DNA of 64,000 nt from Thiospirochaeta perfilievii. GTDB taxonomy: Bacteria > Spirochaetota > Spirochaetia > DSM-2461. The translations under genes and the position numbers were made by a program. The notes beneath the pieces were generated by a model. The model saw only the letters and a program-made list of their open reading frames with translations. It searched no databases and was not told where the DNA came from. Of the stretch, positions 22,639-37,752 are shown one piece after another (the first letter of the stretch is position 1; the number at the start of each line of letters is the position of its first letter). The stretch lies in assembly GCF_008329945.1 (NCBI RefSeq), contig NZ_CP035807.1, forward strand, positions 1,116,001 to 1,180,000. Direction: 5' to 3'.

Positions 22639-22995
22639 CTATATAAACCTATTTAGTAGATTAAGAATATCTTTATAAAAATCCATTGTAGATCCTCTTC
22701 TCAAAAGCTCATGACTAGTTACTCCATCATTCATTAGAACTACTTTCTTACAGTAACTAGCAGCTTTAATATCATGTGTAACCATTAGAATTGTTTTATT
22801 ATATTTTTTATTTAGAATTTCAAATGTTTCCATTACCTCCCTAGAAGTCTTAGAATCTAAACTTCCCGTTGGTTCGTCAGCTAATATAACTAATGGATTA
22901 TTAACTAAAGATCTGATAATTGCTGCTCTTTGCTTTTGACCTCCTGATATTTCATAAGGATATTTATTTTTTATATCAAGAATCTTAAAATCAAC
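22639..22995 (-). pseudogene. ABC transporter ATPase (BceA-type), C-terminal fragment
   Basis: Carries the ABC signature ISGGQKQRAAIIRSL, Walker B VILADEPTGSLDSKT and the H-loop MVTHDIKAA, continuing in frame to a TAA four bases before the permease start. It is cut from its N-terminal half by the IS66 element at 22996-25398. Removing the element and one 8-bp target copy rejoins the halves as a 247-residue ATPase. Confidence 0.9.
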
Positions 22996-23066
22996 GTAAC
23001 CGTCAAATCTAAAGGCAGTAACAACTGATATTTAAATATTTAATATTTTAAAAAGGGAATAGCTCT

Positions 23067-24635
23067 CTAAGAAGGTAACATAATTTTATTAACTTCTATT
23101 GGATCACATTTCCATGGAGCTAATTCTTCTAATGAGGAGCCTTCTGGTAATAATGGAGCCTTATCATATAACCATTTTAAATATGCGTATGGATTTAAAT
23201 CATTTAATTTTGCCGTTTCAATTAAAGAGTAGAAAAAACATAATGCATCCGCACCTTCAGGACTACCCGAAAATAAAAAATTTTTACGACCCATAACAAG
23301 TGGTTTTACCACTCTCTCCGCAGCGTTATTATCTGGAGTAAGCTCTGCACAATCAAGGTAATTTATCATTTTATCCCATTGGCCTAATGTATATTTTACA
23401 GCTTTCCCCAATTTACTTTCTGGTCTAATATTTATAGCCTTTTTATCAAGCCAGTCTTTTAGGTTATCAAGTAATGGTGTCGCTAACTTCTTTCTTTCTG
23501 CTACAAATTCTTCCGGTTTGAGGTTCTTATCTCTAAGTTGTTTTTCTACAACATATATCTTTTGAATTTTATTAATTACAACATTAGACTTATTTAGTTG
23601 CTTAGAAGCTTTATAGGCATCGTAAAGCTCTCTCCGACAATGTGCTAAACATGTTACATGTGTTATTTTGTCACTATTTTTAAAAACGGCATTGTAACCT
23701 GGGAAACCATCTGACTGACAAAACCCAGAAAAGCCTTCAGTAAAATCTTTAATATATTTTGAACTTCGAGATCTATTATATTCATAGAGAGCTATACTTG
23801 AGTCTTTAGGCCCACCACAGGTGACCCATATGTAAGAGTTACTAGAATCTAATTTACCAACTTCCCCATGAACTTTGAGGACTGTTTCATCCATTTGAAG
23901 ATATGTACCAGTCTTTATGTGATCTTTCATAATATCATTAAGACCTTTTAATTTTCTATAAGCTTTTATAGTCCAGTTTGACATATTCTGTCTGCTTATC
24001 GGAATCCCATACCTCTCAAATCTTTTCTCTTGCCGATAAAATGGCAGGTAATCACAAAATTTATTTGTATGGATGTAAGCAAGAAGACCACCAGTCACTA
24101 TACTTCCTGAAATCAATGATGGTGGTGCAGGAGCAACTCTAAAAGTTGGTTTATCTTCATCTCCTGAACCTTCACAATTCCTGCAGGCATATTTTGGTCT
24201 TATATGTTGTTCTACATAAGACTTTTCAGGAATAATCTGTACCCTTTCTGTTACTACTTCATCAATTTTAACCATCTGACATCCACAAGCACACTGTTTA
24301 TCATCTTCTGATATATCGTGAATGATTTGTTTTCTAGGTAGGGATGGATCTATAGGTTTTCGACCTTTCTTTTTTCTATTATATGCTGGAATAGATATAA
24401 CTTCAGGTTCATCCTCTTCTTCTATATCCAAGGCGGTTTGCTCAAACTCATCAAATAATTCAGATTGTAAAGGTGTAACCTTTTCACTAGATTTTCCAAA
24501 TCTCTTTACTCTTTCGAGACGCAACTCTTCTTCTAGTATTTTAACCCTATTTTCAAGAGATTTATTTGAGTTTTCAAGAGACTCAATATATGTAGATATT
24601 TCTTCAGGGATTACCTGTTTTTTTATTCCGCCCAT
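23067..24635 (-). CDS. tnpC: IS66 transposase TnpC (copy 1)
   Basis: 522 residues. N-terminal coiled coil (ESLENSNKSLENRVKILEEEL); zinc-finger-like CACGCQ and ACRNC pairs around residues 110-155; DDE core (LQMDETVLKVHG with the first Asp, CQSDGFPGY with the second, NNAAERVVKPLVMGRKNFLF with Glu). Identical at protein level to the copy at 35079-36647. Confidence 0.95.
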   Translation of the reverse strand: MGGIKKQVIPEEISTYIESLENSNKSLENRVKILEEELRLERVKRFGKSSEKVTPLQSELFDEFEQTALDIEEEDEPEVISIPAYNRKKKGRKPIDPSLPRKQIIHDISEDDKQCACGCQMVKIDEVVTERVQIIPEKSYVEQHIRPKYACRNCEGSGDEDKPTFRVAPAPPSLISGSIVTGGLLAYIHTNKFCDYLPFYRQEKRFERYGIPISRQNMSNWTIKAYRKLKGLNDIMKDHIKTGTYLQMDETVLKVHGEVGKLDSSNSYIWVTCGGPKDSSIALYEYNRSRSSKYIKDFTEGFSGFCQSDGFPGYNAVFKNSDKITHVTCLAHCRRELYDAYKASKQLNKSNVVINKIQKIYVVEKQLRDKNLKPEEFVAERKKLATPLLDNLKDWLDKKAINIRPESKLGKAVKYTLGQWDKMINYLDCAELTPDNNAAERVVKPLVMGRKNFLFSGSPEGADALCFFYSLIETAKLNDLNPYAYLKWLYDKAPLLPEGSSLEELAPWKCDPIEVNKIMLPS

Positions 24636-24676
24636 CGAGTAAATACTACAATTTTATAAAAGATTATAAAACCCTT

Positions 24677-25024
24677 TTAATTCATCTCTTTAAAATATAT
24701 TTCTTTATGGGCTTTCCAAAAATCTATACCAGACAATAGAAGTTTTAATTGTTCTAAAGTTATCTCTTCTGCATCATCTGCCGTTTGTGGCCATGGGAAC
24801 TTATCTTTCTCGAGTTTCTTTTGCCACATTGCAAAACCATTTTTATCCCAGTATATACATTTCAAGTTTTTTCTGTTTTTGCTACAAAACAAAAATAAAC
24901 TTCCAGAACCAGAATCTAATTTCATTTCACTTTCAGCTAAAACTGATAACCCATTAATCTGAGATCTCATATCTGTTGATCCAGGGCGAACGAAGATTGA
25001 TATTTTAGTTAGGTCTAAAAACAT
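24677..25024 (-). CDS. tnpB: IS66 accessory protein TnpB (copy 1)
   Basis: 115-residue IS66 Orf2 protein (RPGSTDMRSQINGLSVLAE, GSGSLFLFCSKNRKNLKCIYWD, FAMWQKKLEKDKFPWP). Its stop precedes tnpC, and its start overlaps the tnpA stop by one base, suggesting translational coupling. Needed for transposition in studied IS66 elements. Confidence 0.93.
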   Translation of the reverse strand: MFLDLTKISIFVRPGSTDMRSQINGLSVLAESEMKLDSGSGSLFLFCSKNRKNLKCIYWDKNGFAMWQKKLEKDKFPWPQTADDAEEITLEQLKLLLSGIDFWKAHKEIYFKEMN

Positions 25025-25329
25025 CAGTTAACTTCCATTAGTACAGCGATTATTTTACTAATTTTATCTGAATTTATAACTCCACAGATCTCAATCTTTG
25101 TATCATTAACAATAATTTTAATATCATGAGTTTTCTTAGAATTACTCGTTTTAGGTTTTATCTTAACCAAATTTGATTTTTCAGTATTTATAGAGAACAT
25201 TTTAACCCAATAAATAAAAGTTGATGCTTTTAGGTTATTTTCTCTACTAAAAGCTGCAACTGACTGGCCTGATTTATTGAACTCTGATACTAATAATTTC
25301 CACTCTTCGTGGCTCTTTCGACTTTTCAT
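25024..25329 (-). CDS. tnpA: IS66 accessory protein TnpA (copy 1)
   Basis: 101 residues, helix-turn-helix protein (HEEWKLLVSEFNKSGQSVAAF, NNLKASTFIYWVKMF) typical of the first IS66 gene. Confidence 0.9.
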   Translation of the reverse strand: MKSRKSHEEWKLLVSEFNKSGQSVAAFSRENNLKASTFIYWVKMFSINTEKSNLVKIKPKTSNSKKTHDIKIIVNDTKIEICGVINSDKISKIIAVLMEVN

Positions 25330-25398
25330 ATTATCCCTCGGACTTAAGGGTGTAATATTTTATTTATTTTTTTAAGGGCATACTAAATTGACGGTTAC

Positions 25399-25793
25399 AA
25401 ATCAACAAGCATTTCATTCAATTTATTTTTTATTATCTTTTTATTTATGCCTTTTAAAATCATAGGAAGTACAATATTTTCCTCAATAGTTAAGCTATCT
25501 AGTAAGTTTGAATTTTGAAATACAATTCCAATTTTATTAAGTCTTAATAATGACTGTTCTTCTTTTGTCATTGTTGTCAGATCTTTACTTGAAAAGAATA
25601 CATTTCCTAAAGTGGGTTTATCCAATGTCCCTAAGATTTTTAATAAAGTGGTCTTTCCACAGCCTGAAGAACCCATTAGTGCTGTAAAATCACCACTAAA
25701 AAGATCAAGATTCACTCCATTTAAAACTACAGTGCTTGAACCTATCTGATCAATATAAGTTTTATGAATATTTTTAACTGATAATACTGGCAT
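25399..25793 (-). pseudogene. ABC transporter ATPase (BceA-type), N-terminal fragment
   Basis: First 131 codons of the interrupted ATPase: Walker A MGSSGCGKTTLLKI and Q-loop IGIVFQNSNLLDSLT are present, and the frame runs into a stop supplied by the IS end. Without its signature motif and Walker B it cannot hydrolyse ATP. See the C-terminal half at 22639-22995. Confidence 0.92.
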
Positions 25794-25845: not shown

Positions 25846-25980
25846 TCATCCTGAATAACTTTCTCCTTGACATCCAGTACAACTTTCACAACCTTTACAA
25901 CCCTTGCACCAGAAACACCAGCTTCCCGTACCCATCTCGTTTAATGAATCACTTTCATCAGTCTTAATCTCTAAAAACAT
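25846..25980 (-). CDS. CXX-repeat RiPP precursor peptide A
   Basis: 44 residues from the ATG at 25980, preceded by AAAGGAGAT. The leader begins MFLEIKTDESDSLNEMGTGS, and the core has six cysteines at 22, 25, 28, 31, 34 and 37, exactly every third residue (C-FW-C-KG-C-KG-C-ES-C-TG-C), then a short polar tail. The leader is shared with the two paralogues at 27503 and 27671. The upstream in-frame codons to 26052 overlap the transglutaminase gene and are not needed. Likely substrate of the radical SAM enzyme encoded upstream. Confidence 0.9.
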   Translation of the reverse strand: MFLEIKTDESDSLNEMGTGSWCFWCKGCKGCESCTGCQGESYSG

Positions 25981-27670: not shown

Positions 27671-27829
27671 TTATATGGGCATTGGTGGCCAAGGTTTACT
27701 TGCTCCTGATTCTCCACTACAACCTGAGCATGACTCGCATCCTCTACAACCTTTACAACTGATACAATACCATGCTGTACCTAATTCACTTAATGAATCA
27801 CTTTCATCTGACTTAACCTCTAGAAACAT
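27671..27829 (-). CDS. CXX-repeat RiPP precursor peptide C
   Basis: 52 residues, ribosome site AGGAGGTGA before the ATG. Leader MFLEVKSDESDSLSELGT, six cysteines at 22, 25, 28, 31, 34 and 37 (C-IS-C-KG-C-RG-C-ES-C-SG-C), then a longer tail rich in Gly, Ser and Pro ending PWPPMPI. The tail distinguishes it from A and B and may mark a different mature product. Confidence 0.9.
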   Translation of the reverse strand: MFLEVKSDESDSLSELGTAWYCISCKGCRGCESCSGCSGESGASKPWPPMPI

Positions 27830-27864: not shown

Positions 27865-28032
27865 TTATATTTTATAGTTAATTTCATCTAAACTTTCATT
27901 AACAAATGATTTTAATATTTCATTTTCAACGTTTTTAAATACCATTGTATTTTTTATCATTTGTAATACTTCTTTTCGTATTGAAGTTATGTTTATATAT
28001 TCTTCTTTTCCGTTATTATTTTTAGATAACAT
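27865..28032 (-). CDS. Small hydrophilic protein of the peptide cluster
   Basis: 55 residues (MLSKNNNGKEEYINITS... ending LDEINYKI), ATG at 28032 preceded by GGAGA. Predicted helical, no cysteines, no membrane segment. It lies between the maturase and the precursor genes with short gaps, so it is probably cotranscribed. No family recognised; an accessory or chaperone-like role in maturation is a guess. Confidence 0.6.
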   Translation of the reverse strand: MLSKNNNGKEEYINITSIRKEVLQMIKNTMVFKNVENEILKSFVNESLDEINYKI

Positions 28033-28045
28033 TTTATTCTCCGTA

Positions 28046-30160
28046 TTAATTTCTAACTAATTTTACAGTTGTTAATAATTTGTCCAATGGATCTAAAGAA
28101 TCATTGAACTTAATTTCCGATAACTTATTGTCAATAAATTTATTATCAATGTTTTCCTTTAAAATTCTTGATACATTCATTTCTCTATAACTTAATTCAC
28201 ACTGTTCTTGCGTAGGTACTGTTATTTCTGAGGTGTTTTTTATATTATCGTATATGCATCTTTTACAGTGATAGGCTGTACAATTCTCACATAAAGATGA
28301 TGAATGAAGTTTATATCTGTCCAAATTATTATCTGTTAGACCTGTTTTTACATTACCCATAATACCAATGGCATTATCGAAATAAAATGCTGCACATGGA
28401 AATATGTTTCCTTCAGGAGAGACTGTAAGACTTTTATCACCAGCTTTACAATTTGACATATTGTTAATCATTAATCTGTCAGTTATGACATTTACCTCTT
28501 TAAGGAATCTACGATTATTAAATTGTGAAGATAAAAAGGGTACAACGCTTAATAATTCATTTTCATACAGAATAAAATCTTGATTGTTCATTGTTGAAAA
28601 ATCTTTAACAATAATATTAACTCTAGTGCTTACTTGAAGTAGATCTATGATTTTTGTTCCTAGACCTACAATATTTGATTTATCCAAATGTATGATTGTA
28701 TTTTGATATTCGTTTTCTGTTTCGTTAGATAATACAATTATTTTATTAGATTCTTTACCTTCATTACTAATCTCATAAAATAAATTTTGGGCTAAAATTG
28801 GTTGTAATTCGTTTGAAACTCCTGTTTTAGGTGATAATATTATTGGGCAAAAATTGTTATTTTTAGCAAATTCAAATGCTTCTATCAATATTTCGGGATC
28901 AATACTTCGTGTTAAAACATCATCGCTTGAATATGAACAATGTTCTATAACATTATTACTTAACATTATATATAAATGTTTTGATCTACCACGTAAAATA
29001 CCTTTATCAATACTTTTTTTTAGAGCTAATTGGCTCCAGAAATAATTATTAGCACTTACTCTTGCTTCATGCATTTTACATATATATGTTGCTCTATGAA
29101 AAATTGTGCCTGTAGCTGACTCATCATAATTATACCCCTGACACCAAGAACACCCACTTGCAATATCACACTCTAAACATTTGGATTGACTTTGATGAGA
29201 AGAAGTTAAAGCTCTATAAGCCCTTCTTTTATTCGCATCAATTCCAGTTTTAATATTTCCTATAATTCTTTCCTTTTTATTGCTCAAAGTTGCACTAGTA
29301 AACCTATTGCATGGAAAGAAATCCCCTTTATAATCTACTGCGATCATATTATCACCACATGAACACCAATTGTTGTTACGCCCATTTAGAGGACGACCTA
29401 GACTTGGATCAAAGAATGTACACTCAAAGTTATTATACAATTCCTTTTCTATTATCGTATCGGCTAACTCTTTCAACTGCTTTTCAAATATTTCAGGATC
29501 ACCTTCAACCCAAACATCTTCATATACAATATTTGAATTTACTTCTTCTATACCGTTTTCCCATAGACTTAATATACTATCTTTCAAATAAACCAAATCC
29601 TCATGACTAAATGTTGCTTTAGTTGATTGAATACCAGGGAATTGAGATCTATATAAATCAAAATTACTCATTACATCATCATAAGAACCTTTACCATTTT
29701 TATATATTCGTTGGAGATCATGCTTATCCTTATTCCCATCAATACTAAAACCTATTCCAAGGATTTCTTTATTACTTTTGATGAATTTTTGAACTTTATC
29801 CGTTTTATATAAAAGACCATTAGTAGATATAGAAAATTGAAAATTGCCAAACCATCTATGTTTTTCTACATATAATTTATTTTTTATATAATCACATAAT
29901 TTACTGATTAGATCTATTTCAATGAATGGTTCTCCTCCAATAAAATCGAACATTACTGAGTCAAAATCAAATTTATCACTGTTATTTATTATATAATCTA
30001 CAGCATCTTTTGCTACATTAAATGGCATTCTTAATATTTCATCCCTATTACATACATAACAATAATTACATATAAGATTGCAATCATTTGTTACTACAAA
30101 GGTTACATTTAAAGCATTACCACCCTTCCAGGATTGCGCTCCTCCATTACCTAAAACCAC
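28046..30160 (-). CDS. Radical SAM/SPASM peptide maturase, two-part fusion
   Basis: 704 residues with a GTG start at 30160 and AAGGAG upstream. Residues 1-380: radical SAM core with CX3CX2C at Cys27-Cys31-Cys34 (TNDCNLICNYCYVC) and FIGGEPFIEIDLI, then a cysteine-rich SPASM-like part (NWCSCGDNMIAVD, KCLECDIASGCSWCQGYNYD, YICKMH). Residues about 385-690 lack a radical SAM motif but hold a second cysteine set (NCKAGDKSLTVSPEGNIFPC, LCENCTAYHCKRCIYDN, QCELSYREMN). From memory the halves correspond to the radical SAM maturase and the separate 'CXXX repeat peptide maturase' of CXXX-repeat systems. Likely modifies the cysteine cores of the nearby precursors. Confidence 0.9.
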   Translation of the reverse strand: MVLGNGGAQSWKGGNALNVTFVVTNDCNLICNYCYVCNRDEILRMPFNVAKDAVDYIINNSDKFDFDSVMFDFIGGEPFIEIDLISKLCDYIKNKLYVEKHRWFGNFQFSISTNGLLYKTDKVQKFIKSNKEILGIGFSIDGNKDKHDLQRIYKNGKGSYDDVMSNFDLYRSQFPGIQSTKATFSHEDLVYLKDSILSLWENGIEEVNSNIVYEDVWVEGDPEIFEKQLKELADTIIEKELYNNFECTFFDPSLGRPLNGRNNNWCSCGDNMIAVDYKGDFFPCNRFTSATLSNKKERIIGNIKTGIDANKRRAYRALTSSHQSQSKCLECDIASGCSWCQGYNYDESATGTIFHRATYICKMHEARVSANNYFWSQLALKKSIDKGILRGRSKHLYIMLSNNVIEHCSYSSDDVLTRSIDPEILIEAFEFAKNNNFCPIILSPKTGVSNELQPILAQNLFYEISNEGKESNKIIVLSNETENEYQNTIIHLDKSNIVGLGTKIIDLLQVSTRVNIIVKDFSTMNNQDFILYENELLSVVPFLSSQFNNRRFLKEVNVITDRLMINNMSNCKAGDKSLTVSPEGNIFPCAAFYFDNAIGIMGNVKTGLTDNNLDRYKLHSSSLCENCTAYHCKRCIYDNIKNTSEITVPTQEQCELSYREMNVSRILKENIDNKFIDNKLSEIKFNDSLDPLDKLLTTVKLVRN

Positions 30161-30174
30161 GATATCTTCTCCTT

Positions 30175-30728
30175 TTATACTTTCTGTGTTTGACTAATAT
30201 TATCCAAAAATAATTCCCCGTTTTTAACCTTCAAAATAGCATCAAAATTAAATAATGATTTATGATTATGTGTTATCACGATTATTGTATGATCCTTGCT
30301 TAGATCCTGTAATATTTTTCTATAGACTTCTTTTGATTCTATATCTAATGAATTTTCAATTTCATCAAAGATTATAATTGGACTATTTCTGATTAAAACC
30401 CTCGCGACTGCTAAGCGTTGTGACATACCACCGGAAAGCTTGCACATCTGGCTATTAATAATAGTATTATAGCCATAAGGGAGACTCATAATATAATCAT
30501 GTAACAGAACCTTTTTACATATTGATTCAACTTCTACCTGCGTTACATCACTTTTAACCCACCTAAAATGGTCAACAAAAGAACTAGAGAATATATACGA
30601 ATGCTGACTTAGAACAGATATGTGCTCACTTAATTGTTTTATAGGAATATCTTTAATATCAGTTGTGCCTATTTGAATTGTTCCTTCATAGTGATCATAC
30701 ATTTTCATTAAGAGCTTAATAATTGTAC
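30175..30728 (-). pseudogene. Peptide ABC exporter, C-terminal ATPase fragment
   Basis: Contains Q-loop VLSQHSYIFSSSF, signature KLSGGMSQRLAVARVL, Walker B PIIIFDEIENSLD and H-loop VITHNHKS, ending 14 bases before the maturase start. Separated from the membrane part at 33034-34191 by an IS66 element. Excision with one target copy rebuilds an uninterrupted 567-residue exporter. Confidence 0.92.
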
Positions 30729-30751
30729 GTATCCGTCATTTTCTTGGGCAG

Positions 30752-32281
30752 TTAAAGCATAATCTTATTAACTTCTACCATATCACAATTCCAAGGGGTG
30801 AGGTGTTCCATCGATTCACCTTCTGAAAGTAAAACTACATTTTCAAAAAGCCACTTTAAATACGCGTATGGATTTAACCCATTAAGTTTAGCAGTTTCAA
30901 TTATAGAGTAGAAAAAACATAGAGATTCTGCTCCTTCAGGACTTCCAGAAAATAAGAAGTTACGTCTACCCATAACCATAGGTTTTACGACTCTCTCCGC
31001 AGCATTATTATCTGGAGTTAGTTCAGCACAATCTAGATAGTTAATGATTTTATCCCACTGTCCAAGAGTATATTTCACAGCTTTTCCGAGCTTACTTTCT
31101 GGTCGAAGATTTACAGCCTTCTTGTCCAACCATTTTTTAAGGTCTTCTAAAAGAGGTTCAACCTGCTTTCTTCTGTCTGCAATAAACTCACCTGGAGTCA
31201 TATTCTTAGCCCTTAGTTTTTTTTCTACGTTATATATCTTTTGGATCTTATTTATTACAACATTAGACTTATTTTTCTGTTTAGAAGCAACATAAGCATC
31301 GTACAAAGCACGCCTTGCATGAGCTAAACAGCCTACGTGAATAATATCATCATTGTCTTTAAATATTTTATCGTACCCGGGATATCCATCAGACTGGACA
31401 AAGCCGGAGAATCCTTGTGTGAAATCCTTTATATAATTGGCATTACGCGATCTATTATATTCATATAAAACAATTTCAGAGCCTACTGGACCTCCACGGG
31501 AGACCCAGATATATGAATTGCTTGAATCTAATTTCCCATCTTCTCCATGAACTTTTAAAACGGTTTCATCCATCTGGAGATAATTACCTGTTTTTATGTG
31601 GGTTTTCATAATATCATAAAGTATTTGAAGCTTTTTATATGCTTTTATAGTCCAACTAGACATATTTTGTCGGCTTATTGGGATTCCAAACCGTTCAAAT
31701 CTCTTTTCCTGCCTATAAAATGGAAGATAGTCACAAATTTTATTAGTCAGGATATAAGCAAGAAGTCCTGCTGTTATTATACTACCGGGTATTAATGATG
31801 GAGCTGCAGGAGCAATTCTGAAAACTGGTTTCTCTTCATCTCCAGAACCTTCACAGTTTCTACAAGCATATTTAGGTCTTATATGTCTCTCTACATATAC
31901 TTTTTCAGGTATAACCTGAATTCTCTCAGTTACAACCTCATCTATTTTCACAAGCTCATGACCACAAGCACATTTTTTATCTTCTTCTGAAATATCATGA
32001 ATTATATCTTTTCTTGGAAGTTCATCACTGATAGGCTTTCTTCCCGGTTTTTTCTTTTTATATTCAGAAACAATAATCTCTTCATCAGGCTCCTCTTCCA
32101 TTGGAGTTTCTTCAAACTCCTCAAAGAGTTCTTTTTGAAGAGGCATCTTTTCACTAGATTTGCCGAAATGTTTACTTCTTAATAAGCGAAGTTCATCTTC
32201 TAAAAGAGTAACCTTATTCTCAAGAGAATCTATATATTTTAAAACTTCCTCAGGTAATTCCTGCTTGTTAATATCTGTCAT
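30752..32281 (-). CDS. tnpC: IS66 transposase TnpC (second type)
   Basis: 509 residues with the same plan as the other IS66 transposases: coiled-coil N-terminus, CACGHE and ACRNC cysteine pairs, LQMDETVLKVHG, VQSDGYPGYDK and NNAAERVVKPMVMGRRNFLF. Diverged throughout from the 522-residue version. Confidence 0.95.
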   Translation of the reverse strand: MTDINKQELPEEVLKYIDSLENKVTLLEDELRLLRSKHFGKSSEKMPLQKELFEEFEETPMEEEPDEEIIVSEYKKKKPGRKPISDELPRKDIIHDISEEDKKCACGHELVKIDEVVTERIQVIPEKVYVERHIRPKYACRNCEGSGDEEKPVFRIAPAAPSLIPGSIITAGLLAYILTNKICDYLPFYRQEKRFERFGIPISRQNMSSWTIKAYKKLQILYDIMKTHIKTGNYLQMDETVLKVHGEDGKLDSSNSYIWVSRGGPVGSEIVLYEYNRSRNANYIKDFTQGFSGFVQSDGYPGYDKIFKDNDDIIHVGCLAHARRALYDAYVASKQKNKSNVVINKIQKIYNVEKKLRAKNMTPGEFIADRRKQVEPLLEDLKKWLDKKAVNLRPESKLGKAVKYTLGQWDKIINYLDCAELTPDNNAAERVVKPMVMGRRNFLFSGSPEGAESLCFFYSIIETAKLNGLNPYAYLKWLFENVVLLSEGESMEHLTPWNCDMVEVNKIML

Positions 32282-32324
32282 TACAAAAGAATTCTACAAT
32301 TTTAATAATAATTATAAAACCCCT

Positions 32325-32672
32325 TTAGTTCATTTCTTTAAACTTTATTTCTTTATGGGCTTTCCAAAAATCAATACCATCTAAAAGTAGCTTTAACTGT
32401 TCAAAAGTTATTTCTTGAGCATCTTCCTCAGTCATTGGCCATGGGAACTTATCTTTTTCTAGTTTTTTTTGCCACATACAGAATCCATTTCGATCCCAGT
32501 AAATACACTTTAATGTTTTTCTGTTACGGCTACAAAATAGAAAAAGGCTTCCTGAACCGGAATCCATTCCCATTTCGTCTTCTGTCAGTACAGATAAGCC
32601 ATTTATTTGTTTTCTCATATCTGTTACTCCAGGTCTTACATATATAGATAGGTTTGTAAAATCTAGTATCAT
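32325..32672 (-). CDS. tnpB: IS66 accessory protein TnpB (second type)
   Basis: 115-residue IS66 Orf2 protein (RPGVTDMRKQINGLSVL, GSGSLFLFCSRNRKTLKCIYWD). Start overlaps the tnpA stop by one base. Confidence 0.93.
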   Translation of the reverse strand: MILDFTNLSIYVRPGVTDMRKQINGLSVLTEDEMGMDSGSGSLFLFCSRNRKTLKCIYWDRNGFCMWQKKLEKDKFPWPMTEEDAQEITFEQLKLLLDGIDFWKAHKEIKFKEMN

Positions 32673-32965
32673 TATATCTCTCTTATCACAGAAATAATCT
32701 GAGCTATCTTTGAAGATGATACTGTGGCGGGAATCTCTAGTTTAATACTATTTATCATTAGCAGCGTTGGTTCTAAAGGTTTCTCTGATTTCAATTTAAC
32801 TTTCACAAACTTTTCTGACTCTGTTTCTTTTAATCTCCTAAGCCAATTCTGAAAGGTTGTTTGTTTAATATTTTTTTGTTTAGTAAACTCTGTTATTGTT
32901 AAACCTGATTTTTGTTGTTCTATAACTAATTGTTTTCTTTCTTCTAAAGTATATTTCGATTTCAT
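32672..32965 (-). CDS. tnpA: IS66 accessory protein TnpA (second type)
   Basis: 97 residues from the ATG at 32965, which has GGAGG five bases upstream; an upstream TTG at 32977 overlaps that ribosome site. Helix-turn-helix protein (KSGLTITEFTKQKNIKQTTFQNWLRRL). Confidence 0.9.
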   Translation of the reverse strand: MKSKYTLEERKQLVIEQQKSGLTITEFTKQKNIKQTTFQNWLRRLKETESEKFVKVKLKSEKPLEPTLLMINSIKLEIPATVSSSKIAQIISVIREI

Positions 32966-33033
32966 AAATCCTCCCAAATAGAGGATGAATCACTTTTCAA
33001 AATATTTTAATGGCATATAGTTTTGACGGATAC

Positions 33034-34191
33034 AATTGTACTTTTACCACTACCATTATCTCCCAAGATTCCTGTAATTGCGTTTGTTGTTATATTAAAA
33101 AATGTGTTATTAATAACTGGTGCTGATTCATTATATGAAAAACTTACAGAATTAAATTTGATATCACCATTTAAATTTTTTATGTTATAATTTGTTTTTT
33201 TATTAACATTTTGATATAGATTGTGTAGGTCATGTATTCTATGTAAGGGAATCATAGATTGCTGTAATTTTGAACTAATACTGGTGATATTTTTTAAAGA
33301 AAGAAAATATATTGTAGAGTATCTTGTAAAAGAGACAAAACCACCAATAGTAAATATTTTTAATGATATTTGAAAAGCACCAATAATAATATATGCTATC
33401 AACCCCAAGAACTCTAATAGCATACTGGCAAGTTTAGATTGTGCACTTTTCTTTTTTATTTTTTTTATTTCAGATGCTAATTTAAAGTTGAGTTGTGACA
33501 ATGAACTAAATGCTTTATCTTCCATTGAAAAGAACTTAATATCTAATAGACCATCAATAATCTCTTTAACAGAGTTGAATTGATTGTCATGTTGTTTTTT
33601 TATATCTCCTGAAATCTCTCTTAGTTTTCTTCCAAATATAGTAAACATGTATAAAGATAGTGGAAATGATAAAAACAGAACTCCATATAACGCTATATTT
33701 AATTTTATCAGAATTATACTAATACCTACAATTTTAAAAGAATCTAGAATAATTGAGATCAGCGTATTAATATATAATTCTGTAATAATTGGCACATCAT
33801 TTTCAACCCTGTTAATAAGTTCTCCACTTTTAAAAGTATCAAAATCTTTTAAAGGCATATTAATTAATGCCTTATATGTATCATCTTTTATTTTTTTATT
33901 TAAATTTACGGTAATATTTATAGTTATGTAAGTTTCTAAAAGACTAATAAAAATTCCTACTAAACCAATTAGGAAAATTAAGATAATAGGTTTTAAAGTA
34001 TCATTAAAACCTTCTACCAATAGTGAGTCTATAATTTCACCAAGAAAATATGGTTCAAGTAATGTTACTCCTACTGATAAGGTAGATAATATTAGGATTA
34101 CTAAAATTTTAATTCTATATCCTTTTATATACTTTAGAAAATATTTGAGACATATAATATCATTTGTAGAAATGTTATTATTAAATATCAA
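33034..34191 (-). pseudogene. Peptide ABC exporter, membrane domain and Walker A fragment
   Basis: About 386 codons of a one-polypeptide ABC exporter. Six membrane helices (first near residues 28-50), then the start of the nucleotide-binding domain (IKFNSVSFSYNESAPVINN) and Walker A LGDNGSGKSTI, where the IS66 element enters. No N-terminal C39 peptidase is present, so leader removal must happen elsewhere. Its start overlaps the upstream gene stop by four bases. Presumed exporter of the modified peptides before disruption. Confidence 0.92.
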
Positions 34192-34463
34192 ATTATTCTC
34201 TTTGTTAATTTTCGAGTACTGTAATCAATTCTCCATTCAGTATTTTCTGCAAGACTAAATCCATATTTTCTTTCAACGTCCTTCCACCATGACTTATGGC
34301 ATAGCTCTACATCAATAAGATTAGCCACATATTCTTCAAACATTTCCTTTGTATCTAGCTTCAGCGATGTTAAAAGTGTTAATAAGCATCCTTTTTTATT
34401 AGCTAATTCTTGAAATTTTTCTAGATAAGATCTATCTAAAATACATAATAATTCGTGTTTCAT
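34188..34463 (-). CDS. Small protein, possible CXXX-type peptide modification accessory protein
   Basis: 91 residues, first gene of the minus-strand peptide operon. Soluble, largely helical, with a C-terminal block SWWKDVERKYGFSLAENTEWRIDYSTRKL. From memory this block resembles the small 'CXXX repeat peptide modification system protein', which accompanies related maturases. The resemblance and position suggest a partner of the maturase; function unknown. Confidence 0.6.
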   Translation of the reverse strand: MKHELLCILDRSYLEKFQELANKKGCLLTLLTSLKLDTKEMFEEYVANLIDVELCHKSWWKDVERKYGFSLAENTEWRIDYSTRKLTKRII

Positions 34464-35007: not shown

Positions 35008-35078
35008 GTAACCGTCAAATCTATAGGCAGTAACAACTGATATTTAAATATTTAATATTTTAAAAAGGGAATAGCTCT

Positions 35079-36647
35079 CTAAGAAGGTAACATAATTTTA
35101 TTAACTTCTATTGGATCACATTTCCATGGAGCTAATTCTTCTAATGAGGAGCCTTCTGGTAATAATGGAGCCTTATCATATAACCATTTTAAATATGCGT
35201 ATGGATTTAAATCATTTAATTTTGCCGTTTCAATTAAAGAGTAGAAAAAACATAATGCATCCGCACCTTCAGGACTACCCGAAAATAAAAAATTTTTACG
35301 ACCCATAACAAGTGGTTTTACCACTCTCTCCGCAGCGTTATTATCTGGAGTAAGCTCTGCACAATCAAGGTAATTTATCATTTTATCCCATTGGCCTAAT
35401 GTATATTTTACAGCTTTCCCCAATTTACTTTCTGGTCTAATATTTATAGCCTTTTTATCAAGCCAGTCTTTTAGGTTATCAAGTAATGGTGTCGCTAACT
35501 TCTTTCTTTCTGCTACAAATTCTTCCGGTTTGAGGTTCTTATCTCTAAGTTGTTTTTCTACAACATATATCTTTTGAATTTTATTAATTACAACATTAGA
35601 CTTATTTAGTTGCTTAGAAGCTTTATAGGCATCGTAAAGCTCTCTCCGACAATGTGCTAAACATGTTACATGTGTTATTTTGTCACTATTTTTAAAAACG
35701 GCATTGTAACCTGGGAAACCATCTGACTGACAAAACCCAGAAAAGCCTTCAGTAAAATCTTTAATATATTTTGAACTTCGAGATCTATTATATTCATAGA
35801 GAGCTATACTTGAGTCTTTAGGCCCACCACAGGTGACCCATATGTAAGAGTTACTAGAATCTAATTTACCAACTTCCCCATGAACTTTGAGGACTGTTTC
35901 ATCCATTTGAAGATATGTACCAGTCTTTATGTGATCTTTCATAATATCATTAAGACCTTTTAATTTTCTATAAGCTTTTATAGTCCAGTTTGACATATTC
36001 TGTCTGCTTATCGGAATCCCATACCTCTCAAATCTTTTCTCTTGCCGATAAAATGGCAGGTAATCACAAAATTTATTTGTATGGATGTAAGCAAGAAGAC
36101 CACCAGTCACTATACTTCCTGAAATCAATGATGGTGGTGCAGGAGCAACTCTAAAAGTTGGTTTATCTTCATCTCCTGAACCTTCACAATTCCTGCAGGC
36201 ATATTTTGGTCTTATATGTTGTTCTACATAAGACTTTTCAGGAATAATCTGTACCCTTTCTGTTACTACTTCATCAATTTTAACCATCTGACATCCACAA
36301 GCACACTGTTTATCATCTTCTGATATATCGTGAATGATTTGTTTTCTAGGTAGGGATGGATCTATAGGTTTTCGACCTTTCTTTTTTCTATTATATGCTG
36401 GAATAGATATAACTTCAGGTTCATCCTCTTCTTCTATATCCAAGGCGGTTTGCTCAAACTCATCAAATAATTCAGATTGTAAAGGTGTAACCTTTTCACT
36501 AGATTTTCCAAATCTCTTTACTCTTTCGAGACGCAACTCTTCTTCTAGTATTTTAACCCTATTTTCAAGAGATTTATTTGAGTTTTCAAGAGACTCAATA
36601 TATGTAGATATTTCTTCAGGGATTACCTGTTTTTTTATTCCGCCCAT
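35079..36647 (-). CDS. tnpC: IS66 transposase TnpC (copy 2)
   Basis: 522 residues, identical to the copy 1 transposase at 23067-24635; domains as described there. Confidence 0.95.
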   Translation of the reverse strand: MGGIKKQVIPEEISTYIESLENSNKSLENRVKILEEELRLERVKRFGKSSEKVTPLQSELFDEFEQTALDIEEEDEPEVISIPAYNRKKKGRKPIDPSLPRKQIIHDISEDDKQCACGCQMVKIDEVVTERVQIIPEKSYVEQHIRPKYACRNCEGSGDEDKPTFRVAPAPPSLISGSIVTGGLLAYIHTNKFCDYLPFYRQEKRFERYGIPISRQNMSNWTIKAYRKLKGLNDIMKDHIKTGTYLQMDETVLKVHGEVGKLDSSNSYIWVTCGGPKDSSIALYEYNRSRSSKYIKDFTEGFSGFCQSDGFPGYNAVFKNSDKITHVTCLAHCRRELYDAYKASKQLNKSNVVINKIQKIYVVEKQLRDKNLKPEEFVAERKKLATPLLDNLKDWLDKKAINIRPESKLGKAVKYTLGQWDKMINYLDCAELTPDNNAAERVVKPLVMGRKNFLFSGSPEGADALCFFYSLIETAKLNDLNPYAYLKWLYDKAPLLPEGSSLEELAPWKCDPIEVNKIMLPS

Positions 36648-36688
36648 CGAGTAAATACTACAATTTTATAAAAGATTATAAAACCCTT

Positions 36689-37036
36689 TTAATTCATCTC
36701 TTTAAAATATATTTCTTTATGGGCTTTCCAAAAATCTATACCAGACAATAGAAGTTTTAATTGTTCTAAAGTTATCTCTTCTGCATCATCTGCCGTTTGT
36801 GGCCATGGGAACTTATCTTTCTCGAGTTTCTTTTGCCACATTGCAAAACCATTTTTATCCCAGTATATACATTTCAAGTTTTTTCTGTTTTTGCTACAAA
36901 ACAAAAATAAACTTCCAGAACCAGAATCTAATTTCATTTCACTTTCAGCTAAAACTGATAACCCATTAATCTGAGATCTCATATCTGTTGATCCAGGGCG
37001 AACGAAGATTGATATTTTAGTTAGGTCTAAAAACAT
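36689..37036 (-). CDS. tnpB: IS66 accessory protein TnpB (copy 2)
   Basis: 115 residues, identical to the protein at 24677-25024. Confidence 0.93.
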   Translation of the reverse strand: MFLDLTKISIFVRPGSTDMRSQINGLSVLAESEMKLDSGSGSLFLFCSKNRKNLKCIYWDKNGFAMWQKKLEKDKFPWPQTADDAEEITLEQLKLLLSGIDFWKAHKEIYFKEMN

Positions 37037-37341
37037 CAGTTAACTTCCATTAGTACAGCGATTATTTTACTAATTTTATCTGAATTTATAACTCCACAGA
37101 TCTCAATCTTTGTATCATTAACAATAATTTTAATATCATGAGTTTTCTTAGAATTACTCGTTTTAGGTTTTATCTTAACCAAATTTGATTTTTCAGTATT
37201 TATAGAGAACATTTTAACCCAATAAATAAAAGTTGATGCTTTTAGGTTATTTTCTCTACTAAAAGCTGCAACTGACTGGCCTGATTTATTGAACTCTGAT
37301 ACTAATAATTTCCACTCTTCGTGGCTCTTTCGACTTTTCAT
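37036..37341 (-). CDS. tnpA: IS66 accessory protein TnpA (copy 2)
   Basis: 101 residues, identical to the protein at 25024-25329. Confidence 0.9.
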   Translation of the reverse strand: MKSRKSHEEWKLLVSEFNKSGQSVAAFSRENNLKASTFIYWVKMFSINTEKSNLVKIKPKTSNSKKTHDIKIIVNDTKIEICGVINSDKISKIIAVLMEVN

Positions 37342-37410
37342 ATTATCCCTCGGACTTAAGGGTGTAATATTTTATTTATTTTTTTAAGGGCATACTAAAT
37401 TGACGGTTAC

Positions 37411-37752
37411 ATCATAGCTATGAAAGGTGGTAAAGAGACATTTTCACATACGACTTCTGATAATTCATCTATTATGGAAAGATTATATTTAATACATAAT
37501 TTTAAGGGTGGTAACAACGATATTATTCAAAGAGGTATGTCATTATTGGCCTTAAATATGCTACATGGATATAAAAAAGATTTGGTAGAAGATAGTCTTA
37601 ATGGAAAGTATAATCCTCTATATCAAAATGAATGGGTATATAAAGACGAAATAAAAAAACTAATGAGTTATATAAACTCAATAGAATGTCTAAAAATGGA
37701 TACTATTATGAAAATAGAACATACTGCATTTTCTTTTTGGTCTTATATGTAG
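37411..37752 (+). pseudogene. Unknown 181-aa protein, C-terminal fragment
   Basis: Continuation of the gene begun at 34796. After removing the IS and one ATCATAGC, the frame reads through YIIAMKGGKETFSHTTSDNSS to FSFWSYM and a TAG. The fragment has its own in-frame ATG at 37420 but no convincing ribosome site. Helical, mildly basic, no known motif. Confidence 0.75.

Follow-up and report, generated by a model that had tools for sequence, protein, structure and literature searches.

Characterised relatives and the fused maturase

The closest characterised relatives of the N-terminal half of the maturase described here are PapB and CteB. The repeats of PapA follow the form CX3D, and CteB, the SCIFF maturase, has an N-terminal RRE. 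The role of auxiliary clusters in radical SAM peptide enzymes has been called "largely enigmatic" (PMC10470005). In PapB, the substrate thiol is bound by one auxiliary cluster, and electron transfer probably goes by way of the other; turnover depends on an intermolecular step that returns the electron, probably via this second cluster (PMC10470005). In the thuricin CD system, TrnC and TrnD form a complex in which only the radical chemistry of TrnC is strictly essential, and TrnD acts mainly in leader binding (PMC12093266). A search of the open-licence literature for the CXXX-repeat systems defined by TIGR04115 and TIGR04119 returned no paper on them.

We analysed a stretch of 64,000 nucleotides from Thiospirochaeta perfilievii (hereafter the window) in which both halves of a CXXX-type maturase lie in one chain. 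The same fused two-half chain is found on the Anaerococcus prevotii plasmid pAPRE01 (WP_012797095; 38% identity over 97%), where the protein already bears the family name. The plasmid system shares with the window an adjacent small precursor, an ABC exporter, and a TIGR04116-like partner. When compared to the CXXX systems composed of TIGR04115, TIGR04119, and TIGR04116, the window differs in that its precursors have a cysteine at every third residue rather than every fourth, and in that a transglutaminase-like gene lies among them. The fused form is an established architecture, and the protein belongs to two named families. The fresh point lies in what the C-terminal half appears to be, namely a pseudo-radical-SAM that is conserved and has kept one lone cysteine, a reading for which we found no prior description in the open-licence literature.

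PapB resembles the window protein in that the N half covers nearly the whole 330-position model of the PapB family (NF047865), with the same SPASM layout and a repeated-cysteine substrate. However, PapB has no second half, and the window protein scored 213.3 bits against this model, below its cut-off of 340. CteB (PDB: 5WGG and 5WHY) is the closest solved structure to both halves, but it has no second radical-SAM-like half, and the C half of the window protein is without the SAM cluster motif. TrnC and TrnD likewise bring together two radical-SAM-fold proteins, one of them dispensable for radical chemistry. TrnD nevertheless is still able to cleave SAM and possesses an RRE together with a three-Cys Twitch (PMC12093266), whereas the C half of the window protein has lost the motif, kept a full SPASM set, and is fused.

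One frame with two maturase families

The maturase frame runs on the minus strand from 30160 to 28046, starts with GTG, for which the upstream sequence is AAAGGAGAAG, and encodes 704 residues with no internal stop; read on the plus strand, the same interval contains many stops. Its features are:

28046..30160, minus strand: fused CXXX-type peptide maturase (TIGR04115 and TIGR04119 above cut-off; full-length AlphaFold model)
29039..30109, minus strand: N half, active-type radical SAM core and SPASM, residues 18-374 (TIGR04115, 483 bits; conserved motif and SPASM cysteines)
30059..30082, minus strand: CX3CX2C radical SAM cluster motif, residues 27-34 (C27, C31, C34; each cysteine in 83 of 84 aligned rows)
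29078..29365, minus strand: first SPASM cysteine set, C266-C361 (84 of 84 rows)
28049..28999, minus strand: C half, predicted pseudo-radical-SAM/SPASM, residues 388-704, with TIGR04119 at 488-690 inside (220 bits; hhalign to the N half; model)
28937..28939, minus strand: C408, invariant lone cysteine (84 of 84 rows; aligned by hhalign onto C34)
28199..28450, minus strand: second SPASM cysteine set, C571-C654 (each cysteine in 83-84 of 84 rows)

The radical SAM family TIGR04115 (NCBIfam) matched residues 18-374 at 483.2 bits against a cut-off of 350, and TIGR04119 (NCBIfam, CXXX repeat peptide maturase) matched residues 488-690 at 220 bits against a cut-off of 150; both models are of the type equivalog_domain and have curated cut-offs. 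Pfam recognized Radical_SAM once (22-175) and SPASM twice, the second time at 571-618. Residues 27-34 read CNLICNYC, which is the CX3CX2C motif, and the first SPASM set comprises seven cysteines (C266, C284, C328, C331, C337, C340, and C361), all present in 84/84 rows.

The C half begins at about residue 388-395, some 100 residues ahead of the start of the TIGR04119 model, and contains no radical SAM motif. It follows the seven-cysteine SPASM pattern CX9-15GX4C...CX2CX4-5CX2-3C...C with C571, C589 (in FPC), C624 and C627 (CENC), C632 and C635 (CKRC), and C654. Each of these occurs in 83-84 of 84 rows, a conservation far above what chance would give. These results agree with a sequence-only reading of the locus, which had placed a CX3CX2C motif and a SPASM-like region in residues 1-380 and a second SPASM-like set, without the motif, in residues ~385-690, and had likened the second half to the CXXX repeat peptide maturase. 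Its description of a single chain with one radical SAM core and two auxiliary-cluster domains corresponds to the Pfam counts.

The C half as a second, degenerate fold

At the expected place, a CX3CX2C or GGE motif was present in 0 of 84 C halves compared to 82 of 84 N halves, so that by the CX3CX2C test the C half does not qualify as a radical SAM enzyme in any row. The seven SPASM cysteines and C408 (84/84) are nonetheless kept among sequences at about 25-30% identity. This retention bears on the idea that the C half serves solely for structure or folding, being kept because the split pair is an obligate heterodimer, and neither binds metal nor touches the peptide directly. Such a role would fit an N half that on its own has complete catalytic and auxiliary motifs, and TrnD tolerates loss of its radical cluster (PMC12093266). 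However, eight cysteines held in 83-84 of 84 sequences at this level of identity would be difficult to account for if they had no part in metal binding or thiol chemistry, and we regard the idea as improbable.

The TIGR04119 model also matches the N half, with 47 bits for the window protein and 27-40 bits in other genomes, and the two halves are therefore homologous. Profile-profile comparison of the C half to the N half (hhalign) gave an E value of 9e-12 over 182 columns. C408 lies in the loop after barrel strand 1, and hhalign of this stretch alone (P 8e-5) pairs it with C34, which is the last of the three CX3CX2C cysteines in the N half. An AlphaFold model of the C half, built with 60 natural sequences as input, reached a pLDDT of 86 and a pTM of 0.86. 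When this model was searched against the PDB, CteB ranked first by both Foldseek (E 7e-10) and VIA-align, and the comparison to 5why (Z 21.3, 264 residues, rmsd 3.1) extended from barrel strand 1 through the SPASM domain; the predicted structure thus has the partial TIM barrel and SPASM domain of the radical SAM/SPASM fold. The full-chain model had a pLDDT of 89.4 and a pTM of 0.87, and the PDB contained no chain spanning both halves, the best match being CteB with a TM of 0.42 of the query. The profile match and the AlphaFold model, with CteB as its best PDB match, therefore indicate that the C half is a second radical-SAM/SPASM fold, degenerate and homologous to the N half.

Fused and split loci

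Relatives were collected by scanning 84,980 species genomes, with the Anaerococcus plasmid copy and one gut contig as starting points; the best 80 of the 394 relatives found were kept and joined by three loci from other collections. Among these 83 loci (best 80 of 394 plus three), the halves were adjacent or fused throughout, being split into adjacent genes in 63 (~400 and ~315 aa, side by side) and encoded by one gene in 20. The fused loci came from Bacillota where the source was named, together with one planctomycete (L028). The split loci were mostly from Bacteroidota, with two Lachnospiraceae MAGs, one Spirochaetales MAG, one Acidobacteria MAG, and a few unassigned. The earlier description of the two proteins as normally separate is therefore correct for Bacteroidota-type systems (63/83 split) but not for Bacillota-type systems, in which the fused gene is the rule (20 loci). 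That reading would also have failed had the halves matched a single continuous family and the C half lacked stand-alone homologues; a stand-alone C half is present in 63 of the 83 relatives.

In a sample of 391 Clostridia genomes, TIGR04119 was over its cut-off six times, five times in frames of 713-736 aa and once in a 492-aa frame. Across 98 relatives and 393 genomes of the window's phylum, only the window genome was over the cut-off, and the system is therefore patchy. On a tree of the N half (a quick-method, unrooted tree with weak support at the decisive fork and a long window branch, which gives no direction between fusion and fission), the fused and split labels need one change, compared to a mean of 19 with shuffled labels.

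We considered whether the split pairs could be fused genes with one in-frame stop and rejected this as a ranking artefact. Nearly all split loci from the scan have both genes in the same frame, and the scan ranked loci by single tblastn hits, which favours same-frame pairs; in the one split locus found by another route (L009), the genes overlap by 4 bases and are out of frame. Two weak TIGR04119 matches from other Clostridia genomes (L166 and L167) were examined as further pseudo-enzymes and set aside, because both keep CX3CX2C and are ordinary radical SAM proteins. In the second of these (L167:1867-3045), a frame rich in C-x-C/CxxR-type repeats directly follows another radical SAM gene, and this is possibly another Cys-repeat system.

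Partner protein and export

A small candidate partner gene is found in the window upstream of the maturase:

34188..34463, minus strand: TIGR04116 homologue (CXXX repeat peptide modification system protein), 91 aa (35.7 bits, E 7e-9, short of the 50-bit cut-off)

A homologue of TIGR04116 was found nearby in 20/20 fused and 59/63 split loci (best 80 of 394 plus three). The export genes differ between the two forms: an ABC exporter accompanies 19/20 fused loci compared to 3/63 split loci, and TatC is present in 0/20 fused compared to 45/63 split loci. An RRxF/L motif near the precursor start was seen in 92 of 104 cases in split loci and in 1 of 27 in fused loci. This pattern suggests that the split (Bacteroidota-type) systems export their modified peptides via Tat. 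At L009:2222-2746 and L009:5226-6270, split-type CXXX precursors have a twin-arginine-like start, and tatA/tatC adjoin.

Precursor peptides

Three precursors, with a transglutaminase-like gene between them, lie downstream of the maturase:

27671..27829, minus strand: precursor peptide 1, 52 aa, six cysteines, one every third residue
27503..27628, minus strand: precursor peptide 2, 41 aa counted from the common MFLEIK start, six cysteines, one every third residue
26013..27437, minus strand: transglutaminase-like protein, 474 aa, with an N-terminal hydrophobic stretch (PF01841, E 8e-17)
25846..25980, minus strand: precursor peptide 3, 44 aa counted from the common MFLEIK start, six cysteines, one every third residue

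The three precursors have a common leader, MFLE(I/V)K(T/S)D, and all 15 of their cysteine-to-cysteine spacings are 3, which sets them apart from the CXXX-repeat definition of a cysteine at every fourth residue beside a maturase. In the relatives, a spacing of 4 was counted 1674 times compared to 134 times for 3 in split loci, and 176 times compared to 27 in fused loci. Spacings of 3 and 4 occur together in a few of the fused loci (L040, L041, L054, L068, and L090), and the window therefore stands at one end of a spread and not on its own. We found no earlier description of the CXX register of the window precursors in the open-licence literature. The three-residue register offers a test of whether the enzyme counts residues or reads cysteines.

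The transglutaminase-like protein has no homologue in the 83 other loci, which rules it out as a core part of the system; it could be a leader peptidase or unrelated. Directly behind the maturase, at 27865-28032, is a 55-aa ORF without a family match, whose position suggests that it is a component of the system.

How the two halves may work together

We lean towards the view that the protein is a pseudo-heterodimer in one chain, in which an active radical SAM/SPASM N half is joined to a catalytically dead C half acting as a peptide-holding, Fe-S-bearing partner. Judging from its families, the N half would be a functional radical SAM/SPASM enzyme of ranthipeptide-maturase type that makes a 5'-deoxyadenosyl radical and most likely forms thioether (sulfur-to-carbon) links from the repeated cysteines of the three precursors. 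In the C half the motifs for the SAM cluster and for SAM binding have been lost, and for this reason it should be unable to start radical chemistry, while both auxiliary-cluster sites are kept. It would most likely hold the peptide in cis and carry two extra Fe-S clusters; these could serve as binding sites for additional cysteine thiolates and as electron carriers, a good match for a substrate whose cysteines are numerous and close together. In Bacteroidota and some other groups, where the neighbouring gene encodes this partner, it would work in trans, presumably in a complex of the split pair. By analogy with TrnD, the C half may have gone one step further, losing radical chemistry and keeping the barrel and both auxiliary sites. 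From sequence, model, and analogy, substrate positioning or the holding of extra Fe-S clusters would be its most plausible role. The C-half cysteine sites could instead bind zinc or a single cluster.

No RRE was matched in the maturase by Pfam or NCBIfam, and leader binding would therefore fall to the C half or to the TIGR04116-like protein. With modest confidence, we favour the C half; the TIGR04116 homologue, nearly always present, could be the peptide-binding part instead. The same facts, the lack of an RRE match and a TIGR04116 homologue in all fused and most split loci as counted above, also speak for an account in which the TIGR04116-like protein binds the peptide and the C half works chiefly as an electron relay, giving an electron back to the SAM cluster from its two auxiliary clusters after each thioether. 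PapB requires intermolecular electron transfer for turnover, probably via its second auxiliary cluster (PMC10470005). For a relay alone, however, the whole barrel retained beside the clusters would be superfluous, and C408 sits in a barrel loop rather than in the SPASM domain; we judge this account rather unlikely. A more elaborate version of the pseudo-heterodimer, which we put forward only tentatively, would be an obligate pair in which the pseudo-radical-SAM half loads two auxiliary clusters and C408 holds or relays substrate sulfur, giving a five-cluster maturase for cysteine-rich peptides, with the cysteine register moved in this genome from four residues to three.

If the peptide-holding, Fe-S-bearing reading of the C half is right, an enzyme copy left with only its auxiliary sites, which some bacteria have as a fusion and others as a separate protein, provides a natural comparison. 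Because the halves occur in both arrangements, the contribution of the auxiliary sites should be measurable by mixing halves.

An insertion element in the exporter gene

The exporter gene of the window, located between the maturase and the TIGR04116 homologue, is interrupted:

33034..34191, minus strand: N-terminal part of the exporter ABC transporter, broken off within the Walker A loop (ABC_membrane; insertion site)
30729..33033, no strand assigned: IS66-type element inserted into the exporter gene (with the 8-bp target duplication AATTGTAC)
30175..30728, minus strand: exporter ABC transporter, C-terminal part, nucleotide-binding domain (ABC_tran; frame continues over the empty site)

The element has perfect 10-bp terminal repeats (GTATCCGTCA), and over the empty site the exporter frame continues as GSGKSTIIKLLMKMYDHYEG. 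Since its ends and the duplications are clean, the insertion is recent. It should disable export, and with the exporter gene interrupted, this strain may have an impaired pathway.

The insertion raises the question of whether the whole system is decaying in this genome, so that the fused maturase no longer matters. The IS66 element in the exporter Walker A, the other transposases on both sides, a second ABC gene that is cut too, and the long tree branch of the window protein would all be consistent with decay. The maturase, however, is open across 704 codons with every motif residue in place, the three precursors are intact, and the insertion is recent; moreover, decay would leave the same protein design in 20 other loci unexplained. 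We therefore give this explanation little credence for the maturase.

Two identical 2.4-kb IS66-type copies flank the peptide cluster (23013-25399 and 35025-37411), and the left copy lies between two parts of the second, MacB-like ABC gene (25395-25793 and 22639-22833).
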